This document shows positions 4,534 through 61,035 of a stretch of DNA of 64,000 nt, in pieces (positions within the stretch are counted from its first letter, which is position 1; the number at the start of each line of letters is the position of its first letter). The notes below the pieces were generated by a model that was given only the letters and a program-made list of their open reading frames with translations, was not told where the DNA came from and made no database searches. The stretch is from Ktedonobacteraceae bacterium (lineage in GTDB: Bacteria > Chloroflexota > Ktedonobacteria > Ktedonobacterales > Ktedonobacteraceae), in the NCBI GenBank assembly GCA_035653615.1, contig DASRBN010000037.1, positions 125,736-189,735 of the forward strand. Reading direction: 5' to 3'. Position numbers and translations under genes: made by a program.

Positions 4534-5631
4534 TTATTGTTGTATCGCCTCGGCCAGCTTGTTGACGAACTCTTCGTCGAACCAGATGCGGTTCTGGCTA
4601 TCGACGTTCAGGCCGTCGTGCGGATGCCCGTTCGGCGTTGGCGTGTTGTATTCGGAGAACGAGCCGGTGCCGCTATCGGGGAAGGAGCCGAAGATGTTCT
4701 GCTCGGAGTCGTCGAACCAGACGAGGCCGTTGCTGTCGACGCTGATACCGGAGGCATGTTCGGCGCACGTCTGGCAGGCAATAGGATAGGCGTATTCTGT
4801 GACGCCATTGTTTGTGCCGGGCTGGGCAAGGCTGACCTGCAGTTCGCCGATCATACCGACGAAACCCTCTGTCCACCAGATATTGCCGTTAGGATCGATG
4901 GTGATCATGTGAGGAGTCAAGGCGGGGGGTGGATTGGTGCGAATCTTGTATTCTTCTATCTGCCCGCTTGAACTGACATATTCGCCGATCTGTGCCACCG
5001 CGCCGTTGTTTTCGGTGAACCAGATGTTGTTGGAGGCGTCGACGACGATGCCATAGGGCAGGCTGTTGGCAGTAGGGGTGGTATATTCGGTAAATTTGTG
5101 CTTTTTGGGGTCGAAACGCGCGATTTTGTTGGTGTAGTGTTCCGTTACCCAGATATATCCCTTGTGGTCGATAGCCAGGTCCCAGGGGCCAGAATTGGCG
5201 GTGGGCAGCGTCCACTTTTTGAATGTGCCGGTGCTGGGGTCCAGGCGACCAAGCGTATTGGTGTGGAACATAGGAAACCAGAGATTCCCGTTTTTATCAA
5301 AGGCCAGGAAGAGCGGCTGCCCGTAATGGGCCGGTAGCTGGTATGTTGCGATCCAACTCGAGGTGACGGGATCAAATTCCTCGATTTTGCCAGGAGGCGT
5401 ACCCGTGGGGCAATCTGGCTGGGGGTCGCAGCCAGGGACTGCCAACCAGACGTGGCCATTGCTGTCGAAAGCTGTCCCCCAGGGGTCTATGCCACTGGGG
5501 GTGTACCAATCCTGCGATAGAACCTGGGAAGGACGCAGGGCAAAAACCTGGCTTCCGCTGCTAAAGAACGTGACTCCAGCCAGGAGTACGGTCATTGATA
5601 AGAAACTAAGGAATAACTGTTTGCTGCGCAT
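4534..5631 (-). CDS. Secreted streptogramin-lyase-like beta-propeller
   Basis: 365 residues with an N-terminal signal peptide (MRSKQLFLSFLSMTVLLAGVTFF region, ending near an AxA-like SQVFAL). The rest is a run of propeller blades of the Vgb/SMP-30/NHL type, each with a DxxGNxWF-like strand: DSNGHVWLA, DKNGNLWFP, DHKGYIWVT, DASNNIWFT, DPNGNIWWT, DSNGLVWFD and DSQNRIWFD. Seven such strands fit a seven-bladed propeller. Vgb proper linearises streptogramin B, but most homologues in environmental bacteria have no known substrate, so an antibiotic-lyase role should not be assumed. It is a shorter paralogue of the next gene, which carries the same propeller plus extra domains. No good ribosome site is seen at the start. 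Confidence 0.8.
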   Translation of the reverse strand: MRSKQLFLSFLSMTVLLAGVTFFSSGSQVFALRPSQVLSQDWYTPSGIDPWGTAFDSNGHVWLAVPGCDPQPDCPTGTPPGKIEEFDPVTSSWIATYQLPAHYGQPLFLAFDKNGNLWFPMFHTNTLGRLDPSTGTFKKWTLPTANSGPWDLAIDHKGYIWVTEHYTNKIARFDPKKHKFTEYTTPTANSLPYGIVVDASNNIWFTENNGAVAQIGEYVSSSGQIEEYKIRTNPPPALTPHMITIDPNGNIWWTEGFVGMIGELQVSLAQPGTNNGVTEYAYPIACQTCAEHASGISVDSNGLVWFDDSEQNIFGSFPDSGTGSFSEYNTPTPNGHPHDGLNVDSQNRIWFDEEFVNKLAEAIQQ

Positions 5632-5702
5632 TGTACGCGGGTTGACCTTTCTAGAGAACCTGGCACCTTCTAGAGGTGCGATGGGCGACCACTATAGAGT
5701 GC

Positions 5703-5846
5703 GAATTATGGTTTTTCACAATATACTCCGGCAACGGACGCGGGGCCGATCAATCGGCGGTGGGCGCGATCAATCGGCCCCTACGGCGGAGCCGTAGTAT
5801 CGATTGATCGCCCGGTTGCAGGACTATTTTGTCGAAACTCATTATC
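5703..5846. repeat. Family A palindromic element, fullest copy A1
   Basis: The ends are imperfect inverted repeats (GAATTATGGTTTTTCACAAT from 5703 and GGACTATTTTGTCGAAACTC from 5821). Inside are GGGCCGATCAATCGG, GTGGGCGCGATCAATCGGCCC and a second hairpin CTACGGCGGAGCCGTAG. The same blocks recur at 16927, 31868, 36423, 42352 and 61074. No transposase is encoded, so this is a MITE- or REP-like element. It fills most of the gap between the two propeller genes. Confidence 0.75.
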
Positions 5847-5867
5847 CGGCACATGGTCGCCCCTACG

Positions 5868-8567
5868 TTAACTACCGGTATAACCGATTACGTCGCTGCC
5901 TCCAATGGAGCCGGCGGCGCTGAAGTACAGGGGCCGCTCGGCTACAATGGGGCCGGTGGATTGCACGAACATCGAATCCTCATAGCCCTGGGAATGATCT
6001 CCACTGTGATAGAGATATTTCAGTACATAAGAGTTGATGTTGACGGTGAGACGCGAATGGGCCACCACTGCTTGCGTGAAGGTGTAGGAGCGGCCATAGC
6101 CGTTGATAAGCGTGATGGTCGCGGTCTCATTGTTATTTGTTGGGTTTTGCAAAGTGAGCCACTCGATAAAACCGGGCGCTGTGTATCCTTCGGCGAACGC
6201 GAGAATACTGGCCTGAGCGGGTCCCGGCATACCGGTGACATCGGTGACGCCCGTCCCCGATTTGCCGCCAATGCTTAATTTGAAGAATTCCTCGCGCTCA
6301 ACGACGATTTTTGCTCCCGTTGAGCTGATATCGATTGAGACATCGCCGGGTTGGCTATGGGCGCTGACATCCCAGTTGGTCTGGCTCTGTGGGCCAACCG
6401 AAAGTGTTACAGTGTTGACCGAGCCGTTCGGATATTCCAGATTGATGCTGACATTGGCGGTATTGCTGGAGTCCAGGTTGGCGATGATCAGGTTTTCCTG
6501 AAAGCCCGGATCGACGTGCCCCTCGGCGAAGAGCCAGTCATTGTTGGGCGCAGACGCGCCAACCACTGAAGCGGCTCCCGATATATTGCCCGCCTGGCCT
6601 GCCGGGAAACTGTTGAAGTAGGTGGGCCGTTCGACGACTACTGGCTGGTCTGAGGTGACGACGGCGGCTACGAGCTGCGATGCTGGTGGTGGGGCAATTG
6701 TGCCTCTAGAACCTGCTGGAACGCTCGTTGTCTGAGGAGTGCCGTACACCTGCCCACCGGCATAGTACGTGGCCGTGACATGGGCCGTGCTGCCACCGGG
6801 CGGGTTCAGAATCGTGATGAACGAGTCGCTACCCTTGATGGTCGGCATATCGGCGAAGTAGAAACTGGTATTCAAATGGGTAGCGCCAATCACATCCGTG
6901 CCGCTACTGGACCCGAAGAAGTTGACGTAGTACAGGGGCCGTTCGACGACCACACCGCTGCATGACGAGGTATTGCTGACCTTGACGATGGTCGAGACAT
7001 AGTCCACGCTGCTCGAATTCTGAGCAATGCCCAGATCAGCATTGACCGACTCGGTATAGCGTGTATTTTTCGGAACCACGCGTGAAATATTGACGGGACT
7101 TTTGCCGGTCAAGAGGTAATCAAAGTTGATATTACAGGCATAGTTGGGATTGGGATTTTCCACCGTGAGCCATTCCTGGAAACCCTGACCAACTTTCCCC
7201 TCGGCGAAATACCAGGTCTGGCTGACCGGAACTTTACTCGGTGGTGGTGTTGGGGAGGGTGAAGGTGTCGACGACGGTGTATTTGTCGGGCTGGGTTGTG
7301 GCTGCGGGATGCCATTGTTTACGCCTTCGCCCAATTTCCTGGCGAATTCCTCAGTGAACCAGAGGTTGCCGTTCTTATCTACGGCCAGTCCATCATGGGG
7401 ATGCGCATTCAACTGGTATTGATCGCCATTATCAACCGTATACATGACGAAGTAGCCGCCACCGGGAACATAGGCACCAACACGGGCATTTTCGGCATCA
7501 TCGAACCAGACAGTCCCCTGTTTGTCTACTGCGATGCCGGAAATATGGGTATTGCAACTGGGTACACAGGAAGCCGGGGGCACAATATATTTGGTCACCC
7601 CATTGCTTGTACCTGGGGAAGCCTGGCTAATGACCAGTTTCCCAATTTCGCCGTCCGGTCCTTCCGTCCACCAGATATTGCCGGATGTATCATAAGTAAT
7701 CATATGCGGAGTATCGGCGCCGCCAGGAGGAGGATTGGTACCATACTCGTTAATGGTATTATTCTGCATGGTGCCACTGGAGGTAGGAATGAAGCTGGCA
7801 ATTTTGCTTACGCTGCTGCTATTTTCCGTAAACCATATCGCGCCTGTGCCTGGGTCGGGGCCGGTAATGCCATAGGGACGACTACCGCCGGTTGGAGTAG
7901 GAGTTTCGTGAAACTGCTGTGATGCAGGGTCGAATTCACCAATCTGATTGGCCCATTCTTCTGTGAACCAGAGGTGCCCATAGTGGTCAAAGACGAGGTC
8001 GAACGGGCTGGCTTGAGGTGTCGGTACCGTCCATTGATTCCAGGTTCCATTGCCGGGATTATATTCGCCGATGGCGTTGGTGATTGGTTCAGAGAACCAG
8101 ATATTGCCGCTGCCATCAATGGCGAGAAAGAACGGGCTGGAATATCCCGCCGGCAATGCGATATCCTTCAGCGGCTGGCTCCCAGAATTAAAGCCATTTG
8201 CGGCGTATTCAGTCAGTCTTCCTGTGGTGGAAGGAGGAGGATTGCAAATCGGCCATCCCCATACATAGGCATCACACTGGGGATCGGCAATCCATACATT
8301 GCCACCGGGGTCAAAGCTGACTCCCCAGGGGTTCATATCAGACTGTGGCAAGTAAACCTCGTTAATGGTTGGGTCGGCGTGCGCAGCTTTATGCGTCGCG
8401 ACCAGCACCAGCGAAAATACGCCAATGCTGGCGAGAACAAAAAAGAGAGCGAGAAAAAGACGCGTTTTCCCATTGAATGTATTGCCCAAAAAGAAGGAGA
8501 GGCCGGTCGCCTTTGCCCGGCGGTTATGACTGTTTCCAAGCATGCGATTTTCATTAACTCCTGACAT
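5868..8567 (-). CDS. Secreted propeller protein with FAEG-type repeat domains
   Basis: 899 residues. A hydrophobic stretch at about 37-57 followed by AHADP marks a long signal peptide. Residues of about 65-425 form a Vgb/NHL-type propeller with blades such as DPGGNVWIA, DGSGNIWFS, DHYGHLWFT, DTSGNIWWT, DKQGTVWFD and DKNGNLWFT. A Pro/Ser/Thr linker (SPSPTPPPS) then leads to four copies of a beta-rich module with the signatures WYFAEGKVGQGFQEWL, SFYFAD, WLFAEGHVDPGFQENL and LAFAEGYTAPGFIEWL, which resemble DUF5719. These modules are common in secreted Chloroflexota and Actinobacteria proteins and are probably carbohydrate- or wall-associated. A GGAG sits inside the 5' end of the frame, so an internal start (M9) is possible. 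Confidence 0.8.
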   Translation of the reverse strand: MSGVNENRMLGNSHNRRAKATGLSFFLGNTFNGKTRLFLALFFVLASIGVFSLVLVATHKAAHADPTINEVYLPQSDMNPWGVSFDPGGNVWIADPQCDAYVWGWPICNPPPSTTGRLTEYAANGFNSGSQPLKDIALPAGYSSPFFLAIDGSGNIWFSEPITNAIGEYNPGNGTWNQWTVPTPQASPFDLVFDHYGHLWFTEEWANQIGEFDPASQQFHETPTPTGGSRPYGITGPDPGTGAIWFTENSSSVSKIASFIPTSSGTMQNNTINEYGTNPPPGGADTPHMITYDTSGNIWWTEGPDGEIGKLVISQASPGTSNGVTKYIVPPASCVPSCNTHISGIAVDKQGTVWFDDAENARVGAYVPGGGYFVMYTVDNGDQYQLNAHPHDGLAVDKNGNLWFTEEFARKLGEGVNNGIPQPQPSPTNTPSSTPSPSPTPPPSKVPVSQTWYFAEGKVGQGFQEWLTVENPNPNYACNINFDYLLTGKSPVNISRVVPKNTRYTESVNADLGIAQNSSSVDYVSTIVKVSNTSSCSGVVVERPLYYVNFFGSSSGTDVIGATHLNTSFYFADMPTIKGSDSFITILNPPGGSTAHVTATYYAGGQVYGTPQTTSVPAGSRGTIAPPPASQLVAAVVTSDQPVVVERPTYFNSFPAGQAGNISGAASVVGASAPNNDWLFAEGHVDPGFQENLIIANLDSSNTANVSINLEYPNGSVNTVTLSVGPQSQTNWDVSAHSQPGDVSIDISSTGAKIVVEREEFFKLSIGGKSGTGVTDVTGMPGPAQASILAFAEGYTAPGFIEWLTLQNPTNNNETATITLINGYGRSYTFTQAVVAHSRLTVNINSYVLKYLYHSGDHSQGYEDSMFVQSTGPIVAERPLYFSAAGSIGGSDVIGYTGS

Positions 8568-8600
8568 TTAAGATGTGTGGTTTTTTGCCTGGCACCTATT

Positions 8601-8705
8601 CTGGTACCCTGATGGGGATAGGGACAAGCCGCAATCCCTACAGGGCTATCTATCCGGTGAGCCGAGAGGGACAGGGACAAGCCGCTGTCCCTACTGTCCT
8701 TACGG
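8601..8705. repeat. Family B repeat, tandem copy B1
   Basis: Two units of the motif GGGACAAGCCGC..TCCCTAC occur here, flanked by GGTACC. Each can fold as GGGAC(AGG)...GTCCC. Further copies are at 9418, 11068 (inside a gene), 48222 and 52634. The whole 270-base gap between the propeller gene and the receiver gene holds only this and an A+T-rich stretch that may contain the promoter of the propeller gene. Confidence 0.6.
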
Positions 8706-8837
8706 GCCGGACGTGTTGAAAAGGATTCATAATATCTCAAAAGATTATGCTTCATTGATGGGCTTGAGGCAAGACACGAAGGTATCAATATTTTGATCTA
8801 TTGGTTCTATATTTAGGGAGCAACCGAATCAAAGGCG

Positions 8838-9311
8838 TTAATGTATGAGGTATTGCTCCAATTTGGTGAGCAGGGCGTCTATTTGGAAAGGCTTGGCTAC
8901 CCAGTCACGAGCACCGGCAACCGCGCTGGCAGAACGAACACGGCTGTCGGCGGTCATGATAATAATGGGCAGTTGCGCATATTGCTCATTCTTGGAGAGT
9001 GTAGCAGCGATTTCATACCCTGAAAGTTGTGGCATCATTAAATCGAGCAGGATGACAGAAGGCAGCTGTTGAGGGCCTGCTTGTTCTAGAAATGGCAACA
9101 CTTTTTTACTATCCGATAAGCCTACGCCCGCGTGTTGCTCTGATTCGAGCAGGAACAATAAAACAGAAACGATGGCTTCGTCATCATCGACGATCAGCAC
9201 ATATGGAGTGTTGGGCGCTTGCGGCAATTCAGCATAGTGTTGTTCTTGCCTGGAGATGGAGAAAGCAAGAACGCCTGGCGCCTGGGCGTTCACCTGTTGT
9301 GGATCTGGCAT
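8838..9311 (-). CDS. Single-domain response regulator (CheY-like receiver)
   Basis: 157 residues; ATG at 9311 with GGAG ten bases upstream. After a 35-residue polar leader comes one receiver domain with the acidic pair in VLIVDDDEA, the phosphoacceptor Asp in ILLDLMMPQLSG, Thr in IIIMTADS and Lys in AKPF. There is no output domain, so it would act by protein-protein contact like CheY or Spo0F. No histidine kinase gene is adjacent. The gap on its 3' side is short and holds only A+T-rich sequence. Confidence 0.9.
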   Translation of the reverse strand: MPDPQQVNAQAPGVLAFSISRQEQHYAELPQAPNTPYVLIVDDDEAIVSVLLFLLESEQHAGVGLSDSKKVLPFLEQAGPQQLPSVILLDLMMPQLSGYEIAATLSKNEQYAQLPIIIMTADSRVRSASAVAGARDWVAKPFQIDALLTKLEQYLIH

Positions 9312-9417
9312 AGAGTTCTCCTATTCATCGGCATCCCACATACACTTTTGCATTACCCTATTATTATAACTCGGGAAGCAAGAGGTGATTGTAGAAATCC
9401 CCTGAAAGGAAAGAGCC

Positions 9418-9474
9418 CGGTGCCTGTCCTGGGACCCTGAAGGGGACAGGGACAAGCCGCTGTCCCCTCTGGGC
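9418..9474. repeat. Family B repeat, copy B2
   Basis: GGGACAGGGACAAGCCGCTG followed by TCCCCTCTGGG lies just after the stop of the surface-protein gene and could terminate its transcript. It is preceded by GGTGCCTGTCCTGGGACC, as in copy B1. Confidence 0.6.
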
Positions 9475-9487
9475 GAAGAGGCCTGGA

Positions 9488-11329
9488 TCATTTCTTGCGT
9501 CTATGGAGCACGCCTGCAATGCCAAGTAATCCCAGGGAGAGAGCATAACACGCGATCATGAGTAGTACTAAAGGATTGAACCCTGCCAGCGGTAAGGAGA
9601 ACGATGAAGCGGAACCACCGCTGTTCAAAGCATTTCCAAAGCTAGAGGCTCCTGAACTATTGGACCCATTGGAGGGTGTAGAATTGCCGCCGGGTGTGCC
9701 GGTTGGCGTCGGTGTGCTTCCCACGGTTGATGTCGGGGAGGGTGAAGGTGATGGTGAGGGCGGTACCTGTGTTGGTGAGGGCGAAGGTGCAGGTGATGGC
9801 GTGCTGGTTACGGTCGGCGTAATGGGCACAGGGGTCTGTCCAACCGGTGTCGGCTGCGTTCCACCGCCTGTTCCCCCGCTCGAACCGGTCGGAGTTGTGC
9901 CTGGCGTTGAGATTGTAGCGGGGGCTGTTGGTCCGGCCTTACCGAGAGAGGCAGCGTCGAGTACAATATCGACGGTCGCGACGTGATTGGTTTTGCTATC
10001 GCGAGCGACTATGATATTATGTCCGATATGCCAGATATCTCCGTCTCCTGTCCAGATCGTTACAGTGAAGGCCCCGTGAGCATCTGCCTGTGCGGTGAGA
10101 ACGTTCCCCTGTTGGTCCAGAAGTACTTGCGTTCCATTGTACGTAAAGGAGACTGTCCCATAGTGGCTGAAGCCCTGACCACGCAAATGGACAGGTTGGC
10201 CCGGCAGGAACGGACCCTTGTCGAGCAGATTTAAAGATAGGCCAGGTGTGGTTGTAATAGTCGATGCTGCCGTCGCCTGGGTAGTTGTCCCAGGCTGCCT
10301 GCTTACTACCCTCAAAGCGGTGCCACCGGGTAGAGATGGCGAAAACCAGTTCAAGCTGAGGGCTGTCAGCAGCAGGAGTGAACAGGTCACGATGATTAAG
10401 AGCAGCGTACCAAATAGCCAGAGTATAAATTCAATACGTCCGGGAAGCAGCAACCACCAACGCACGCGGTCAAGGGGATTGAGCGTGATGGTCTTGTGCC
10501 GCTTTTTTTTGCGCAAGGTAGGATCAGCTATCAGCCGGGCATAGGATGAATTTATGGCCTTGCCCGCCGTCCATGATGCCGTATCACCCTCTATTATCCC
10601 GCCTTCTGTGGGGGCGGAGTGGACGAGGGTCTGGGATGCTTGAGATCGCCCTACTGGAAACTCTATTGGGGCAAGGGTCTGGGACGCTTGAGGTCGCCCT
10701 TGTGGAACCAGGGCACGTGAATATCCGCCAACTCCTATATAAACGTCGGGAAGGGTGTCGATCTCCTCTATCGAGAGCTGGGACCGTTCCTGGAATTGTA
10801 CCGGCGAAAGTTCTGCAATCTCGGATTTGTCGAGTCGTAAAGAGACTGGTTGGTGGTGCGTAGCCGGTACTTGCGCGCCTGGTCGTGCAGGTGGAGGGGT
10901 CGTATCGATTTCATCGATGCGAGGCAGCCGGCGCGTCTGGCGAACGTTTGACGACGAGGTCACCTGCGGGAGCGTAGGTATTTCGGGTACCAGCAATGAG
11001 AGCGATGGCAGGCTGGTGCCAACTGCATAGTTTTCCGATTCGTATTCCCAGGTGGTTGAGGCAGGAGCCGGACAGGGACCAGCCGCTGTCCCTACAGAGC
11101 TGTTCGCAGCGCGAGCAATAGAGTCCTGCGAGGGGATGGGTGTGATCGGATTCGGGTGTTTTTTCAATGGCGCTGGCGCGGGTGAAGACAATTTCGACTG
11201 CCGTTGTTGTCCCTTCATTGCCCCTTTCGTATTTGAACGTGGCGGCTCGCTAGGGGGCGCATACACGGCAGGATCGATCCAGACGGATGTGCCGGTGGGA
11301 AGATTATTAAAGGGAGAAATATCTGTCAC
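9488..11329 (-). CDS. Membrane-anchored Pro/Ser/Thr-rich protein with IPT/TIG-like domain and sorting-like tail
   Basis: 613 residues from a GTG start with AGGTAGG upstream. Residues 1-295 are polar, Pro-rich and probably cytosolic. A strong membrane span lies at about 299-327. Beyond it, residues of about 345-460 look like an IPT/TIG-type beta-sandwich (GQPVHLRGQGFSHYGTVSF). A long Ser/Pro/Thr linker follows, and the protein ends with LPLAG (579-583), a hydrophobic span and HRRKK. That tail has the layout of a sortase signal, although LPLAG is not canonical LPxTG. No sortase gene lies in the window. The cytosolic half repeats phrases such as RPQASQTLAP and GRSQASQTLV. A family B repeat lies inside the coding sequence. 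Function unknown; an envelope sensor or adhesin is possible. Confidence 0.65.
   Translation of the reverse strand: MTDISPFNNLPTGTSVWIDPAVYAPPSEPPRSNTKGAMKGQQRQSKLSSPAPAPLKKHPNPITPIPSQDSIARAANSSVGTAAGPCPAPASTTWEYESENYAVGTSLPSLSLLVPEIPTLPQVTSSSNVRQTRRLPRIDEIDTTPPPARPGAQVPATHHQPVSLRLDKSEIAELSPVQFQERSQLSIEEIDTLPDVYIGVGGYSRALVPQGRPQASQTLAPIEFPVGRSQASQTLVHSAPTEGGIIEGDTASWTAGKAINSSYARLIADPTLRKKKRHKTITLNPLDRVRWWLLLPGRIEFILWLFGTLLLIIVTCSLLLLTALSLNWFSPSLPGGTALRVVSRQPGTTTQATAASTITTTPGLSLNLLDKGPFLPGQPVHLRGQGFSHYGTVSFTYNGTQVLLDQQGNVLTAQADAHGAFTVTIWTGDGDIWHIGHNIIVARDSKTNHVATVDIVLDAASLGKAGPTAPATISTPGTTPTGSSGGTGGGTQPTPVGQTPVPITPTVTSTPSPAPSPSPTQVPPSPSPSPSPTSTVGSTPTPTGTPGGNSTPSNGSNSSGASSFGNALNSGGSASSFSLPLAGFNPLVLLMIACYALSLGLLGIAGVLHRRKK
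11068..11097. repeat. Family B repeat inside a coding sequence, copy B3
   Basis: GGACAGGGACCAGCCGCTGT followed by CCCTAC matches the intergenic family B units almost base for base, but here it lies within the surface-protein gene at residues of about 78-88 and keeps the frame open. It falls in a low-complexity cytosolic region that can tolerate insertion. Confidence 0.7.
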
Positions 11330-54644: not shown

Positions 54645-54703
54645 AAAAACAGCAAATTCGCCATTGTGGATTGCCTGCCAGGAAGGGCAGAAAGGAATGG
54701 ATC

Positions 54704-55660
54704 ATGGCATTCAGCGCGTCTCCTCGCCTGATCGACTTTCATAGCCATTACTACGATGCCGCATGGTATCCGTCTGCTTCACCGCGCGGGCCGGCCAATT
54801 TGCTGCGTGCATGGCCATTGCTGACCGATATACACGCGCAACTACAGGCTATGGACGAGGCGGGCATTGATGCGAAGGTGCTGACTGCTCCTGGTAGCGT
54901 ACTGCTGGCTCCTGGCGAGCCGTTACCCATCTCCCTGATGCAGCGTATCAACGATCATTTTGCCGGACTGGTTGCCGCGGATCCTGAGCATCTGCTGGCC
55001 CTTGCCACCATCGATGCGTTTCATGGTGACGCCGCCGCCAGCGAGGTGGAACGAGTCGTACAAACGTTGGGCATTCCCGGAATTTGCGTGGATTGCGCGC
55101 GCGGCGACCGCTACCTTGACGCGCCTGAAGCACGCCCATCTCTGGAAACTGCCGCAGCGCTCGGCATTCCGGTCTTCGTCCACCCCGTCAGCCCTGTTGG
55201 TCTGACTGAGCGGCTGGCACGCATGGGTCATACCGGCGTCCTGCTCGCGCGTGGGACCGAGACCGCCGCGAGCATACTTGCTCTCTTGCGTAGCGGCATC
55301 CTCGATGAGCTTCCCCAGTTGCGGATAGTAATTCCTATGATTGGCGCTGCCGCGTTGCTCTTCGCGGGCATTGCTAACCAGGATTATGCAAGTGATGGTT
55401 GGCAAGGTGGGCCACCAGGTGAATCGCGCAAGCGCCTGTATGTAGATACGATGGGCTATGACTCCGCGTCGATCCGCTTCGCCGTGGAGTTGCTGGGAGT
55501 GGAGCATGTCATCAATGGCAGCGACTGGCCGATCATGCCCATCGCACCACGACGGCAGGTCGAGCATACGCTGACCGCGACGGGCCTCACGGAAGATCAG
55601 CAGGCAGCAATTATGAGCGGCAATGTATTGCGCCTGCTAACTCTCCAGCATGTGCTATAG
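54704..55660 (+). CDS. Amidohydrolase-2 family protein with a substituted metal-site His
   Basis: 318 residues from the ATG at 54704 (AAAGGA seven bases upstream); an earlier ATG at 54671 lacks a site. LIDFHSHYYDAAWYP gives the first HxH metal motif, IPVFVHPVSPVG the next His, and INGSDWPIMPIAP the catalytic Asp. The third metal or acid-base His, normally in a PHxGG block (GHMGE in the paralogue at 41320), is replaced: the sequence reads LRIVIPMIGAAALLF. The enzyme may thus use a different chemistry or be inactive. ACMSD/amidohydrolase-2 relative of the 41320 gene. Ends 24 bases before the unknown operon on the other strand. Confidence 0.82.
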   Translation: MAFSASPRLIDFHSHYYDAAWYPSASPRGPANLLRAWPLLTDIHAQLQAMDEAGIDAKVLTAPGSVLLAPGEPLPISLMQRINDHFAGLVAADPEHLLALATIDAFHGDAAASEVERVVQTLGIPGICVDCARGDRYLDAPEARPSLETAAALGIPVFVHPVSPVGLTERLARMGHTGVLLARGTETAASILALLRSGILDELPQLRIVIPMIGAAALLFAGIANQDYASDGWQGGPPGESRKRLYVDTMGYDSASIRFAVELLGVEHVINGSDWPIMPIAPRRQVEHTLTATGLTEDQQAAIMSGNVLRLLTLQHVL

Positions 55661-55683: not shown

Positions 55684-56331
55684 TCAGCTTTCCGGCAAGG
55701 GGTCTTTTTTAGCTTTGAACTTCAGGGGCTTTTTGTGAGAATGCGATTCAGATACTTTATCTTGCAATGATCCTTCTATTTGACCGAGCAGTATTTCAAC
55801 GTGATGCTGCGCTTCTCTCCATTCCTGAAGGAGATAATCCAGCTTTTGCTGGATTTCCATCTGCTTTTGCTGCGCTTGTCTGGGGGTGTTTTGTCTGCTA
55901 GACGTGAAGACTAAAATAAGGAGATGTAGCTCATGCAAAAATATATCAATCCGGTGCAGTGATTTCACCAACGGATAGCGCAGCGGGCAGACAACGAGAG
56001 GAAGCTGGTCGCTCATATTCAAAAATCCGTAGAAATCCTGGGTCAGTTTGCTTATGATATCTAGCTTTTCAAGCAAACGTTCACATTGATCAGGCCAGAT
56101 ATTCTTCCTATGCGTAAATAGCTCACGTGCATTTGCCATTGCACTCTGCATACCGGCAAGCTTTGACCAGTGCATCTGTATTAGTTCATGGACCTCAATG
56201 AGCGCGAGCATTCGCGTTTCAGGCCATCGCCCTTTTACTAATGTGCCCATTTGTTTAGCCATTTTCCCCGCCTCTTCGTTGAAAAATAGATCACGTGTTC
56301 CAGTGTACCCGATGAAAACATCATTTGTCAA
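55684..56331 (-). CDS. Helical protein of module B, island gene 6
   Basis: 215 residues of unknown function. It begins with a TTG five bases after the stop of the coiled-coil gene, or possibly at an ATG at 56262 that has a better site (GAGGCGGGG). The central region matches the C-terminal half of the 57880 gene product: ARELFTHRKNIWPDQCERLL with ARNLFGDMQKVIYPDKCKRL, then LPLVVCPLRYPLVKSLHRID with LPLVSHPSRLQLAEVLHHLD. This defines a helical 'module B' of about 130 residues. The C-terminus is polar and Lys-rich. No transmembrane segment or catalytic motif was found. Module B alone may be the ligand or regulator of the two-module protein. Confidence 0.6.
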   Translation of the reverse strand: MTNDVFIGYTGTRDLFFNEEAGKMAKQMGTLVKGRWPETRMLALIEVHELIQMHWSKLAGMQSAMANARELFTHRKNIWPDQCERLLEKLDIISKLTQDFYGFLNMSDQLPLVVCPLRYPLVKSLHRIDIFLHELHLLILVFTSSRQNTPRQAQQKQMEIQQKLDYLLQEWREAQHHVEILLGQIEGSLQDKVSESHSHKKPLKFKAKKDPLPES

Positions 56332-56336
56332 GTTTC

Positions 56337-56768
56337 TTAAATAAGAAACTGTCCTAATGCCTCTTCGAGCGCATCACTACATTTGTTCCGGCTCTTACGT
56401 AATTCACGAACGGCTACTGGTTTATCCTTCACCTCTATCCTTTCTTGTCGAAGATCATCGAACAAGCTCAACATAACCTCCACCTCACCAATTGCCTCAT
56501 CTACCTTTTCTACTACAGCATCTTGCGAATCGAGAAACTGATCCCTCTTTGACTTATTTCTAGGGTCCTTGACCCCTTTCAGTACTACGTCAAGGTCATT
56601 TTTCAGTGTCTCTAGATTTCTCTCCTTCTCTTCGGCGTTTCGTGCGTCAGCTTCAGGTAGTTCTTTCTGCACTTTTTTGAGCATCTTCTTATAATCCAGC
56701 AGTTTTTGGCCTTCTGCTGAGCTTTTAGGGTCCGGTACATTTTTGCGTCCAGGGCGTGATGGTGGCAC
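56337..56768 (-). CDS. Charged coiled-coil protein, island gene 5
   Basis: 143 residues from a GTG with GAGGG nine bases upstream. Nearly all helix: a basic leader (MPPSRPGRKNVPDP) then Lys/Glu heptads (LDYKKMLKKVQKELPEA, LETLKNDLDVVLKGVKD, VDEAIGEVEVMLSLFDDL). No known family was recognised. It has a promoter of its own at 56870-56897 and is followed after five bases by gene 6. Small, very charged helical proteins of this kind often act as inhibitors or linkers; that is only a guess here. Confidence 0.55.
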   Translation of the reverse strand: MPPSRPGRKNVPDPKSSAEGQKLLDYKKMLKKVQKELPEADARNAEEKERNLETLKNDLDVVLKGVKDPRNKSKRDQFLDSQDAVVEKVDEAIGEVEVMLSLFDDLRQERIEVKDKPVAVRELRKSRNKCSDALEEALGQFLI

Positions 56769-56869
56769 AACACTCTACCCTCAATATAGCATGGTAGCAA
56801 TGATTTTTCACAACTACCGCTCCGCATAGGCCAAGCACATGTATACAATGTATTTATTGCCAGTTAGTA

Positions 56870-56897
56870 ATTATACATATTTTTTATAACGGTTCAA
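56870..56897 (-). promoter_or_regulatory. Internal promoter for island genes 5 and 6
   Basis: Reading the minus strand: TTGAAC, 16 bases, TATAAT, predicted start near 56863. The -35 overlaps the stop of gene 4. Between the start point and the GTG is an inverted ACAT-N7-ATGT (near 56837-56852) that could be an operator. The gap is strikingly A+T-rich. Confidence 0.65.
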
Positions 56898-57880
56898 ATG
56901 ATTGAAGTCTGAGAATGCCCCTGAGTTGTTTGTTCATTGGCTCCGGCAAGTTGGGCATCGCTTTCAGCTGGGAAGTCAGCACTGTTGAAGGATCTCATCA
57001 ACTTTCTCATTTTATCAAAATTCTGCGCCAATTCGTTGAGAGTTTGATAAACATCTTGCCGTTTCGTGATTGTTTTGTTCGTTGTTGTATGGCTATCGGG
57101 ACAAAAGGTACTGGTCGCGCGCATCACCTTTTTTAACAATGCATCAAGGTGATGTAACACTTCCGCAAGCTGAAGGCGAGATGGATGAGAGACGAGTGGA
57201 AGATGCTCTGTTCTATCTATTACATGAGAGAACTTTTGAACAAGCGTAGCCGTGTTACTTAGTGACTTGATGAGACGCTTGCACTTATCTGGATAGATGA
57301 CTTTTTGCATATCGCCAAACAAATTACGGGCATCTTTCACTTTTCGCAATTCGTCCATAAGATCTGCGCAATATTTATTGATCAGTAGTATATCCCCGTG
57401 TTGCCTGGTCTCAGGGATATTGGGTTTATCACTGATCGCAGGACCTATGACGACAGGAGAGGGAACCTGCCCTAACACCGGCCTGGCTATAGAAATAGGA
57501 GTGTGCTGCCCGGCAAGCTTCTCTTTCTCATGGGTAGTAGAAACTTGTGCGGCAAGGGAATTAATAGCTTCCTCAACCTCTTTCAACAGTTCTTCCAAGC
57601 GCGAATGGCGCTCATCTTCCTTATCTATGAAGCCAGCTATTAATACTTGTATAAAAGTTACCAATACGGCCTGCTTCCCATGTCTTCCCTTCTCTAACAG
57701 AAATCTGATAGTTTTTATTACCCGATCTTCCTTACTATGGGCTTCAGGCAGAGAATATTGAAAAGCCTTCAGTTCTTCAATCTCAAAGACGCCAACCAGC
57801 TCATCGTGCGAATCGAAGACATCACAGTTAAGAAATTCTTCTTTACAGCGTACGAAAAGAGTTGTAGACAAGCTTATCAC
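56894..57880 (-). CDS. Two-module protein: adaptor (EAD-like) plus module B, island gene 4
   Basis: 328 residues from a GTG at 57880, six bases after GGGAGG; a TTG at 57886 overlaps the previous stop but abuts the site. Residues of about 20-100 align with the protease's N-terminal domain: CDVFDSHDELVGVF with DDVFLYPDELRTIF, LPEAHSKEDRV with LPEASSLDRRV, then LLEK with LAEK and DERHSRL with DDRHERL. After a linker, residues of about 170-300 match gene 6. So it could bridge the protease (adaptor to adaptor) and gene 6 (module B to module B). No enzyme motif is seen. The function is unknown. Confidence 0.65.
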   Translation of the reverse strand: MISLSTTLFVRCKEEFLNCDVFDSHDELVGVFEIEELKAFQYSLPEAHSKEDRVIKTIRFLLEKGRHGKQAVLVTFIQVLIAGFIDKEDERHSRLEELLKEVEEAINSLAAQVSTTHEKEKLAGQHTPISIARPVLGQVPSPVVIGPAISDKPNIPETRQHGDILLINKYCADLMDELRKVKDARNLFGDMQKVIYPDKCKRLIKSLSNTATLVQKFSHVIDRTEHLPLVSHPSRLQLAEVLHHLDALLKKVMRATSTFCPDSHTTTNKTITKRQDVYQTLNELAQNFDKMRKLMRSFNSADFPAESDAQLAGANEQTTQGHSQTSII

Positions 57881-57882
57881 GA

Positions 57883-58089
57883 TCAACCTCCCGGTGCCTC
57901 ATAATATCTGAGTATTTGTTGTGAAAGCTGTACCGCGTCTTTATAGTCACGCACCGAGTCCAGGAGTTCTTGTTGGGTGTTCACTCCCAGTAGCTCTTTC
58001 CATGTATTCGGTAGCTCCTCGTCGCCGAAAGATTCTTGAGTTGTCTGGGGTAATAGATGATCATACACCTCAAGATGAGCGGTACGCAC
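57883..58089 (-). CDS. Small acidic helical protein or C-terminal part of the 266-residue protein, island gene 3
   Basis: Sixty-eight residues from a GTG at 58089, preceded by AGGA. The same frame is open all the way back to the TAG that ends gene 2 (58165), giving 93 sense codons after that stop. So genes 2 and 3 are in one frame and separated by a single TAG. The sequence before the GTG (YILGRVNQYANEEHGYLLKE) also looks like protein. Gene 3 could therefore be an independent small gene or the tail of a longer gene 2 split by a nonsense mutation or read through. The TGA is overlapped by the potential TTG of gene 4. Confidence 0.5.
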   Translation of the reverse strand: MRTAHLEVYDHLLPQTTQESFGDEELPNTWKELLGVNTQQELLDSVRDYKDAVQLSQQILRYYEAPGG

Positions 58090-58164
58090 AATATCCTGTA
58101 TTTCCTTCAGCAGGTAGCCATGTTCTTCATTGGCATATTGATTGACCCTGCCAAGGATGTAACG

Positions 58165-58965
58165 CTAATTATTGAGCGCGATATTGCGCTCGCGTGCATC
58201 GCTCGCATCGGCTAACAGGGCAATTTCTTTGCCCGCTTGCAGTATTTCCCACCATGTCTGGCCGCGAGCATTCTCACTGCCCCTGCGGCTGCACACCTGC
58301 ACTTCAATTACAGCGTAAGAAAGTCGTTTGAGTGAATGACCGCCTTTATCTGTCAAATTCCCATTCGCATCTATACGAAGCGAACTGGGCCAATCCTCAT
58401 TGCTTTGTGAGCCTATAACGGTATAGTAACCGGCCTTGAGATTAGCCAGGTTCAGGTCCATTTTCAATGAGAAAAGGCTATGTTGACTGCCCTCCCCTAG
58501 CAAATTACTGAGCAGCCGCCCAACAATCTCACTCACTTTGACAGCTACCGCCCAATCCGCGGAAATAAGCGACAACTTGGAAGTGAGACCTGCTGCGCTC
58601 ATCTTGTCTAGCAGGTCTTTGATCGGCGTATCTTGCACAACTGTATAATCCAGCGTGACATGCAACCAGTCAGTCGTACGGGCAGGCAACCAATCGGTCA
58701 AATTAAAACTTAACCCCAGGCGACAGGGGACATTCTTTTGCAAGGTAGTGACCTGATACACACTGCGCACAGCCGGTGATTTAGACTGAAAAGAACTTTC
58801 TACCGATGAACTGATGGTGATAACACCAGGCTTGATTAACCAGCCGGCATCAAAAAACGCCTGAGCATCATGCAGCTTGACGAGGAAATAGCTGTTGTCC
58901 GGGTCTAAAGCAAATGGAGGGGGAGGTTGTTCTGGGTATTGAAGGGAGCCGACTCCTGTTGGCAT
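58165..58965 (-). CDS. Unknown beta-rich protein, island gene 2
   Basis: 266 residues; AAAGGAG lies seven bases before the ATG, inside the end of the protease gene, and only three bases separate the two genes, so translation is coupled. No family was recognised. The N-terminus is Pro-rich (YPEQPPPPFALDPDNSYFLV); much of the rest predicts as beta strands with alternating hydrophobic residues (VITISSSVESSF, LHVTLDYTVVQD, LISADWAVAVKVSEIVG). No signal peptide or transmembrane span. Directly after a protease in an operon, it might be the substrate, a chaperone or a structural partner. It ends at a TAG followed by an open frame (gene 3). Confidence 0.6.
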   Translation of the reverse strand: MPTGVGSLQYPEQPPPPFALDPDNSYFLVKLHDAQAFFDAGWLIKPGVITISSSVESSFQSKSPAVRSVYQVTTLQKNVPCRLGLSFNLTDWLPARTTDWLHVTLDYTVVQDTPIKDLLDKMSAAGLTSKLSLISADWAVAVKVSEIVGRLLSNLLGEGSQHSLFSLKMDLNLANLKAGYYTVIGSQSNEDWPSSLRIDANGNLTDKGGHSLKRLSYAVIEVQVCSRRGSENARGQTWWEILQAGKEIALLADASDARERNIALNN

Positions 58966-58968
58966 ACG

Positions 58969-60069
58969 TTACTCCTTTGCGTTCTGTGCAGCCATAATTT
59001 CATCATAGAGGTCCGGTTTGCGTTCTCTCAATTCGGACAGAATAGGCTCGAGCAGGGTTCCTTCGCGTAAATGAGCAGCCTTATTTTCCCCATTGTGCAG
59101 GGCGACCACGCGCCAGTTGAAGCGGTTAAATACGGGCGCGCCCGATGTGCCCGGCTCGGTCGGTGTCCTGTAAAGAATGCGCCCCGGTAGTGGAGATAAT
59201 CGCTCGAAGGTATCGACCGACATCTGCTGTTCCTGTCCTAATGGATGTTGAATAATGTAAAGGGCGGTTTGAACCGTAAGAGGAACATGTATATCCAGGC
59301 GCAAATAGCCGCGTGAAGCTAGCGGGTGATCCTCGCGATCTCGTAAACGTATGAGAGCAAAATCGAGTTTCTTTGTATCGATGCTGGGATACAGCAAACG
59401 ATCCACTCCATATTGGATACCCCTGGCAACAGTAGTGTAATCAAAGGTGAAGAGGGTTGTGGCAAGTTGAGCCTGTAGATCGGAAAGTTCGAGCGGTGGG
59501 TCTAACTCCAATGGCGAAGCTTTAGCAGCCTCGATCACATGCCAGCAGGTTATGGCCAGCGTGGGGGTAATGAGCCAGCCGGTACCGGTAGTTCGGCCCT
59601 CTAACACGCCCTTACGAGACCGTCGTAGATCGATGCGAGCAACTGAGCGAGCGCAGGCCAACATTTTTTCCGCGTCGGCTACCGGAAGCATCTGAGCGGA
59701 TATAGGGTTAGCTTCAAGGTTTGTGGCTTCTGCGGTTATCGAGCGGAGTCGATTTAACCATGCGAATTGGCCGGCCAGGGTTCTTAACCGTTCGTGGCGA
59801 TCATCATCAGGGGGATAACGCTCGGTGAGGATCGTTAACAGAATAACCAGCGCATTTTCGCCATTCGCTCGATACTTCTCAGCAAGATATCCTATGACGA
59901 GACTGACGCGCCTGTCCAGAGAAGAGGCTTCAGGGAGACCAGCGCGCCATAACCTCAATCGTTCATCTAGAAAAATAGTTCGTAGTTCATCGGGATAGAG
60001 AAAGACATCATCACAATCCTCAAGAACCCTTTTTAAGGAGAAGAGAAGTGTACCTGGAATACCGGCCAT
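58969..60069 (-). CDS. Trypsin-like serine protease with N-terminal adaptor (EAD-like) domain, island gene 1
   Basis: 366 residues; AGGAGG five bases before the ATG. Residues of about 8-100 form an all-helical domain (FLYPDELRTIFLDERLRLWRAGLPEAS..RV..VIGYLAEKYRANGENALV..LLTILTERYPPDD) resembling the effector-associated domains (EADs) that link effectors in bacterial conflict systems. Residues of about 140-350 are a chymotrypsin-fold protease with the triad H177 (TCWHVIEA), D236 (KLDFALIRL) and S309 (EPGTSGAPVF). No signal peptide, so it is cytosolic. The same adaptor recurs in gene 4. Cleavage of a partner on signal seems likely; the substrate is unknown. Confidence 0.82.
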   Translation of the reverse strand: MAGIPGTLLFSLKRVLEDCDDVFLYPDELRTIFLDERLRLWRAGLPEASSLDRRVSLVIGYLAEKYRANGENALVILLTILTERYPPDDDRHERLRTLAGQFAWLNRLRSITAEATNLEANPISAQMLPVADAEKMLACARSVARIDLRRSRKGVLEGRTTGTGWLITPTLAITCWHVIEAAKASPLELDPPLELSDLQAQLATTLFTFDYTTVARGIQYGVDRLLYPSIDTKKLDFALIRLRDREDHPLASRGYLRLDIHVPLTVQTALYIIQHPLGQEQQMSVDTFERLSPLPGRILYRTPTEPGTSGAPVFNRFNWRVVALHNGENKAAHLREGTLLEPILSELRERKPDLYDEIMAAQNAKE

Positions 60070-60138: not shown

Positions 60139-60167
60139 ATCATATGATTTTATTTTTGCTGTGTCAA
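60139..60167 (-). promoter_or_regulatory. Promoter of the protease island
   Basis: TTGACA, 17 bases, TATGAT on the minus strand: perfect -35, near-perfect -10, ideal spacing. Predicted start near 60132, about 63 bases before the protease ATG. It shows that the island is its own transcription unit, divergent from the class II aldolase gene. The open frame that also runs through this region is therefore unlikely to be a gene. Confidence 0.75.
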
Positions 60168-60363: not shown

Positions 60364-61035
60364 ATGCACTCGAGCTACAGCGAACAGCGAGCGCAAATTA
60401 TTCAGGCCGCGAATATGCTCTTCCATGCAGGCGTGATGTCGCACAGCGGGCATGGCAATTTGAGCGTGCGCCTGCCCGAAGAGGGACAGATGCTGCTGAC
60501 GGCAACCGGCCACATCGAGCACCTGACGCCTGAGCAACTGACCGTGATCACCTTTGATGGCGACCCGGTCGAGGGCGATATCGACCCGGTAGCGCGGGAG
60601 ATCGTCGGTATGCACTCGTGCGTCTACCGCCTGCGCAGCAATGTTAACGCCGTTATTCATACACACTCGCCACACGTGACGAGCTTCGCGCTCGCCAATA
60701 AAGCACTGCCATGCGTATATGAAGCCTTCCTGCGCTTCGGCATTACCGAGGATATCCCCGTAGCACAGTGGGCGCCGCGCGGCTCAGAGGAATCGGTCGC
60801 CAACATCGTGCAGCAGCTTGAGCGGCATCCCACCGTACCCGCCGTCCTGCTTGGCAATCACGGACTGCTGGCTTTCAGCCGCGATCCGCTCACCGCCGCC
60901 CAGCTGATCATCATTATGGAGGAAGCGGCGCAACTGACGCTCGAGGCACGCGCGCTCGGCGGTGAAAAGTCCCTGCCCGCCGATGCCCTTGAGCGCGAGC
61001 GCAAGCATATGCAGCAATTTGGGTCGGCGCAGTAG
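60364..61035 (+). CDS. Class II aldolase/adducin-type protein (AraD/FucA-like)
   Basis: 223 residues; AAAGGA eight bases before the ATG. Class II aldolase fold with SHSGHGNLSVRL (the Gly-Asn-x-Ser phosphate loop), the zinc-ligand pair HTHSPHVTSFA near 100, and a third His in LLGNHGLLAFSRD near 162. These are the three metal His of L-fuculose-1-P aldolase and L-ribulose-5-P epimerase. The substrate is not fixed by sequence. Cytosolic; the next gene, an acyl-CoA synthetase, is on the same strand 134 bases away and beyond a family A repeat. Confidence 0.88.
   Translation: MHSSYSEQRAQIIQAANMLFHAGVMSHSGHGNLSVRLPEEGQMLLTATGHIEHLTPEQLTVITFDGDPVEGDIDPVAREIVGMHSCVYRLRSNVNAVIHTHSPHVTSFALANKALPCVYEAFLRFGITEDIPVAQWAPRGSEESVANIVQQLERHPTVPAVLLGNHGLLAFSRDPLTAAQLIIIMEEAAQLTLEARALGGEKSLPADALERERKHMQQFGSAQ

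Follow-up and report, generated by a model that had tools for sequence, protein, structure and literature searches.

Two neighbouring genes in a small operon of a Ktedonobacteraceae bacterium share a helical module, here called module B, which forms the tail of one protein (gene 4) and stands alone in the other (gene 6). What is this module, and what does a pair of copies do in an operon that also encodes a protease? We addressed this question in a window of 64,000 nt, the whole stretch of DNA that was analysed (contig DASRBN010000037.1; coordinates given for the operon are window positions), and in genomes across the phylum Chloroflexota. A sequence-only reading had offered a bridge, a sensor/inhibitor pair or a recent partial duplication as possible meanings of the shared module. 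In our estimate there is a probability of roughly 60% that the B tail, the gene 5 product and the stand-alone (solo) B are the small all-helical core of an EAD-organised, abortive-defence-like conflict system (EAD, effector-associated domain), to which the protease docks through bDLD1-bDLD1 contact.

A protease operon with two copies of module B

The operon is a run of minus-strand genes (Table 1) flanked by two plus-strand metabolic genes, for a class II aldolase (60364-61035) and an amidohydrolase (54671-55660). The promoter-like site agrees with the consensus in 11 of 12 letters, and the count of such sites in the region barely exceeds that in shuffles.

Table 1. Features of the operon, in window positions
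Feature	Position	Strand	Remark
Promoter-like site (TTGACA, 17 nt, TATGAT)	60139..60167	-	Upstream of protease gene; consensus match only
Effector gene, bDLD1 (residues 2-90) and trypsin-like peptidase (residues 162-324)	58969..60069	-	Pfam
Accessory gene, family unassigned, in-frame TAG at end	58165..58965	-	Not in other trio loci
93 more open codons past the accessory-gene TAG, same frame	57886..58164	-	Final stop overlaps gene 4 start
Gene 4, 330 aa, bDLD1 (residues 4-107) and module B tail	56894..57886	-	Pfam, BLASTP
Module B tail copy (core), in gene 4	56969..57382	-	Solo-only profile E 1.5e-19
Gene 5, small helical-bundle protein, conserved middle position	56337..56768	-	Weak sequence link, E 0.21; pLDDT 82
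Gene 6, 215 aa, stand-alone module B	55684..56331	-	BLASTP, profile
Module B solo copy (core), in gene 6	55762..56184	-	Predicted four-helix bundle, pLDDT 88.9, pTM 0.78

In the protease, Pfam recognised both bDLD1 (PF20689, E 1e-10) and the peptidase domain (PF13365, E 6e-16; 59.9 bits against a cut-off of 27.6). The motifs TCWHV, LDFALIRL and GTSGAP, at residues 174, 235 and 307, are those expected of an intact His-Asp-Ser triad. PF20689 (bDLD1/EAD3) scored 42.4 bits in the protease and 41 bits in gene 4, the curated cut-off being 25, and the two N-termini matched each other (E 7e-13). A scan of the five genes of the window operon found no MoxR, vWA, VMAP, iSTAND, GTPase or other recognised NTPase, and neither an NLR-like ATPase nor a gasdermin; no nuclease was found beside the protease. 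We therefore rejected two candidate assignments: the vWA-MoxR ternary system, for which the operon lacks both the MoxR ATPase and the vWA protein, and the CARD-NLR/bacterial gasdermin system, for which it lacks the required ATPase and gasdermin.

The accessory gene between the protease and gene 4 stops at a TAG after 266 residues, whereas its relatives at two loci (L060 and L061), which sit outside any trio of the kind described below, measure 394 and 391 aa. The 93-codon extension bears no significant similarity to these relatives. Judged from its sequence, the gene looks interrupted, and the operon may be partly decayed.

The two copies are homologous but differ widely

The two pairs of sequence strings that had first drawn attention to the module were both located on the minus strand, in genes 4 and 6, and the match reaches far beyond them and far above chance. 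Residues 154-290 of gene 4 align with residues 33-171 of gene 6 at 61.6 bits (BLASTP, E 6e-16), and the local alignment score of 142 compares with a mean of 34 (sd 5.5) for shuffled sequences, none of 1000 shuffles reaching it (z about 20). The C-terminal half of gene 4 had been said to equal gene 6; homology is borne out by the E-value, equality is not, since only 42 of 140 positions (30%) are identical. Similarly, the interval 55684-57380, put forward as the module pair, does hold both copies but also encloses gene 5 (56768-56337), which is unrelated to module B by profile comparison (probability 0.7%).

At the nucleotide level, no similarity was found between the two window copies: their DNA alignment score equals that of shuffles, and their third codon positions are 27% identical, which is background. 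Thus, the copies do not stem from a recent duplication.

Module B is a rare family of predicted four-helix bundles

When 47 genomes of the class were searched with the gene 6 module, seven besides that of the window proved to hold relatives. Across 400 genomes of the phylum, a profile detected module B in 13 in all; the system is rare. A class search added one further genome, G425. Homologues therefore exist beyond the window pair, and across Chloroflexota loci the module occurs both alone and fused to effector or adaptor domains, the pattern that the sequence-only reading had named as support. When left out one at a time, stand-alone B proteins recovered one another at E-values from 6e-7 to 2e-26, the best non-B frame having an E of at least 0.2. 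Scans with Pfam, NCBIfam and PADLOC gave no model above cut-off for module B or gene 5; the Pfam scan, EAD and bDLD models included, covered gene 6, the tail of gene 4 and three further solo B proteins, and none of them reached the cut-off of any family. Searches for occurrences beyond the phylum were likewise negative: neither gene 6 nor gene 4 had a tblastn match on plasmids, and a contig collection scanned with one solo B yielded only that protein's own locus, in Candidatus Chloroploca asiatica. A match on an Acaryochloris plasmid was rejected as a trio, being a phosphorylase within a longer hypothetical protein with no trio annotated alongside.

The module had been described as helical, with about 130 residues. 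In agreement, AlphaFold2 run on 17 sequences predicted a four-helix bundle of about 130-140 residues with a mean pLDDT of 88.9 and a pTM of 0.78. Foldseek with this model gave no match at E ≤0.001, and among the solved structures listed the module resembled generic bundles only (designed proteins and FAT, vinculin and chemoreceptor domains). The overall fold of B is like that of the FAT, vinculin and chemoreceptor four-helix bundles, and that of gene 5 partly so. The Z values (VIA) of about 12-14 over about 125-140 residues against the FAT/vinculin type are nevertheless no larger than helical bundles without any relationship would be expected to give, and designed bundles scored equally high or higher (Z 13-17).

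A conserved three-gene unit

The order found in the window, a larger gene with a B tail (hereafter X-B tail), a gene 5-like gene and a stand-alone B, recurs as a trio at 15 loci in 14 genomes, 9 genera and 4 families. These 15 include L012, where the contig ends within the larger gene, and L044, where the B tail is not recognisable and the order is otherwise kept. The B tail is C-terminal on the larger gene except at L015, where it is N-terminal. A tails-only profile was mostly not significant in leave-one-out tests; the tails were therefore tested with an independent solo-B profile and with a profile of solo plus confident tails. The solo-only profile found the tails of the window (1.5e-19), L015 (5e-9), L049 (1.4e-6), L017 (6e-6, whole protein), L014 (4e-4) and L013 (8e-4). 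When 838 open frames were ranked with the combined profile, the predicted tails of L013, L016, L042 and L043 were the next four matches (E 0.0026-0.013), followed by a frame at E 0.28. Solo B accompanied the B tail in every case where the contig permits, and the tail profile search found no genome with a tail and without a solo. Moreover, tail and solo of one locus are more alike than in permuted pairings (27 of 40,320).

One reading of such a pair is antitoxin-like: solo B would occupy gene 5 or the B tail and hold the effector off until its loss or titration sets the effector free. The homology between solo B and the tail, their locus-specific similarity and the constant presence of solo B where the contig allows all suit an inhibitor. 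An inhibitor of the antitoxin type, however, needs no third conserved helical partner between the two copies, and we consider this sensor/inhibitor arrangement unlikely, though it deserves to be kept in view. A local partial duplication devoid of functional meaning is hardly credible. It would accord with the window tail, which resembles the solo of its own locus (z 21) more than it does any other tested B, but the same two slots recur across the families of the phylum, and the window copies combine absent DNA similarity with third codon positions at background. The recent partial duplication suggested earlier fails on these grounds.

Nor does the tree show a single clean division into solos and tails of ancient date: it is poorly resolved, and its starred branches force at least two changes of label; the solo and tail of L015, for example, pair at 95/89. 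The tree is compatible with repeated local duplication, conversion or co-evolution alike, and some local homogenisation or co-evolution can be seen in it.

Gene 5 is far more divergent. Several relatives were recovered in leave-one-out searches, the window copy at an E of only 0.21, and the equivalence of window gene 5 would follow from its position and its predicted helical bundle (pLDDT 82). At L049, gene 5 is duplicated in tandem.

Effectors fused directly or sharing matched EADs

EADs have been defined by three features: one copy resides on a core component; further copies reside on effectors, often in the adjacent gene, and are more alike than distant copies; and the same effectors are sometimes fused directly to the core component (Kaur et al. 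2020, PMC7159879; also PMC8195603). bDLD, EAD1, EAD7 and EAD8 are among the domains listed there as effector recruiters (PMC7159879, PMC8195603). The first gene of the trio bears such a domain at five loci: bDLD1 in the window, EAD7 at L015 (under the Pfam cut-off), EAD1 at L016 and L044, and EAD8 at L049. In four of the five, an adjacent effector carries the same EAD; within-locus BLASTP matched bDLD1 with that of the trypsin-like protein in the window (E 5e-12), EAD7 with that of a caspase at L015 (9e-17), EAD1 with that of a trypsin-like protein at L044 (6e-9) and EAD8 with that of a phosphorylase at L049 (2e-37). Elsewhere the first gene is itself fused to an effector, a trypsin-like domain at L043 and, by its GSSGAP motif, at L013 (gene cut by the contig end), or a nucleoside phosphorylase at L014 with five close relatives and at L042. 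The feature of direct effector-core fusion is thus present as well, as trypsin-B and phosphorylase-B proteins. Indeed, all three EAD rules hold if the trio of B tail, gene 5 and solo B is taken as the core. The bridge proposed by the sequence-only reading is accordingly the best fit, the B-tail protein bearing either an effector or an EAD of the kind present on the neighbouring effector.

Only two bDLD1 domains occur in the genome of the window, on the protease and on gene 4 of this operon, and only two EAD1 domains in genome G023, both within its trio locus; from these counts, EAD pairs look private to their loci. At L016 no second EAD1 was found anywhere in the genome, and a TIR-caspase is nearby; a transposase-like frame and a short kinase-like frame lie between the TIR-caspase and the trio (5648-11287). 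L016 looks like a decaying system whose EAD1 is partnerless.

Several loci show further domain arrangements. Next to the trio of L015, the TIR protein (6815-7594, minus strand) and the caspase (8213-10174, plus strand) have a further N-terminal domain in common, which spans about 90 residues (27% identity, E 8e-7); Pfam does not recognise it, and it may be one more adaptor domain. At L014, a second phosphorylase protein (7700-9031, minus strand; counterparts at L017-L019, L050 and L051) lies divergently to the phosphorylase-B trio; a TIR-like N-terminus was read in it by eye, and Pfam finds the phosphorylase only. On the B-tail protein of L049 (8012-11028, minus strand) the EAD8-like domain is tandemly repeated, the repeats being 66% and 60% identical to that of the phosphorylase. 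In genome G030, two bDLD1 domains flank a large NLR/STAND-like gene (L078; 4523-5404, plus; 5462-9148, minus; 10039-10335, plus); we rejected them as parts of a trio, one being a TIR-like fusion and one nearly alone, on a contig other than that of the G030 trio.

Restriction-type genes are neighbours at three loci: HsdM at L013, a ResIII/EcoEI-type R protein with an HsdS-type protein at L042, and DUF499 with DUF1156 adjoining the L043 trio. They are an indirect sign that would point to a role against invaders. The trio might instead be a constitutive scaffold or chaperone that stabilises or localises enzymes of ordinary physiology or development. All three of its proteins are small helical bundles without a catalytic or sensor domain, and the window operon lies between metabolic genes, as such a role would allow. 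We consider it quite improbable: trypsin-like proteins, caspase, phosphorylase, nearby TIR genes and EADs belong to the predicted repertoire of conflict systems (PMC7159879, PMC8195603), the effectors are swapped between loci, and the restriction-type genes adjoin three of them.

Relation to known systems

The loci resemble EAD-organised conflict systems in the matched EADs on core component and adjacent effector, in the direct effector-core fusions and in the repertoire of peptidases, TIR proteins and phosphorylases. A bDLD1-trypsin protein has been reported as the neighbour of a bDLD1-iSTAND core (Kaur, Burroughs, Iyer, Aravind; PMC7159879, PMC8195603). They differ in that the EAD-bearing core component is here a B-tail protein accompanied by gene 5 and solo B, with no recognised NTPase in the operon, and in that B and gene 5 match no model in the libraries scanned. 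The antiphage system of CARD-NLR and gasdermin (Wein et al. 2025), as far as PMC13236601 relates it, is similar in that a death-fold adaptor links a sensing part to an effector and in its operon organisation and exchangeable effectors; relative to that account, the window adaptor is bDLD1 and not CARD, and the core consists of helical bundles. In the protease-activated effector modules of PMC12799240, trypsin-like and caspase proteases are likewise interchangeable among unrelated defence cores, but there the protease has a pro-nuclease as its partner, and the fusions are to parts of Hachiman, AVAST or Lamassu. In the literature searched, supplementary tables aside, the trio is not described.

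A model for the trio

Homology, gene order, matched domains, effector swapping and predicted folds together suggest how the system may work. Most probably, the B tail of gene 4, gene 5 and solo B assemble physically. Given the matched domains and the EAD principle, we infer that the N-terminal bDLD1 of gene 4 recruits the adjacent trypsin-like protease by bDLD1-bDLD1 contact. Because trypsin-like domains and phosphorylases are fused straight to the B tail at other loci, the tail would be the side on which effectors dock, and the EAD pair would be a bridge. At rest, the core would keep the effector inactive or apart; a trigger, for example phage infection, would alter the core, the EADs would gather the effectors, and proteolysis would harm or kill the cell. 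Within the core, solo B might serve as a partner, a sensor subunit or an inhibitor.

In favour of this model we count the conserved order, the swapped X, the matched EADs, the private pairs, the recognition of tails by solo profiles and the restriction neighbours. The weak link of window gene 5 (E 0.21), the partnerless EAD1 of L016, the unrecognisable tail of L044, the 13 of 400 genomes and the perhaps broken accessory gene count against it. More tentatively, and at odds a little short of even, we propose that the trio is an undescribed NTPase-free sensing and activation core of three proteins, made of helical bundles only, and that in Chloroflexota it governs interchangeable death effectors, held directly or by whichever matched EAD pair (bDLD1, EAD1, EAD7, EAD8) a given lineage employs.

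If the model is true, EAD-organised conflict systems gain a core without a recognised NTPase, whereas most of the described cores of such systems set the trigger threshold by ATPase or GTPase switches. The loci amount to a natural swap experiment, in which one trio is combined with trypsin-like proteases, a caspase or phosphorylases through any of four adaptor domains or none. The compact operon of the window, with its private matched bDLD1 pair, would allow a direct test of the homotypic role that has been proposed for bacterial Death-like domains.
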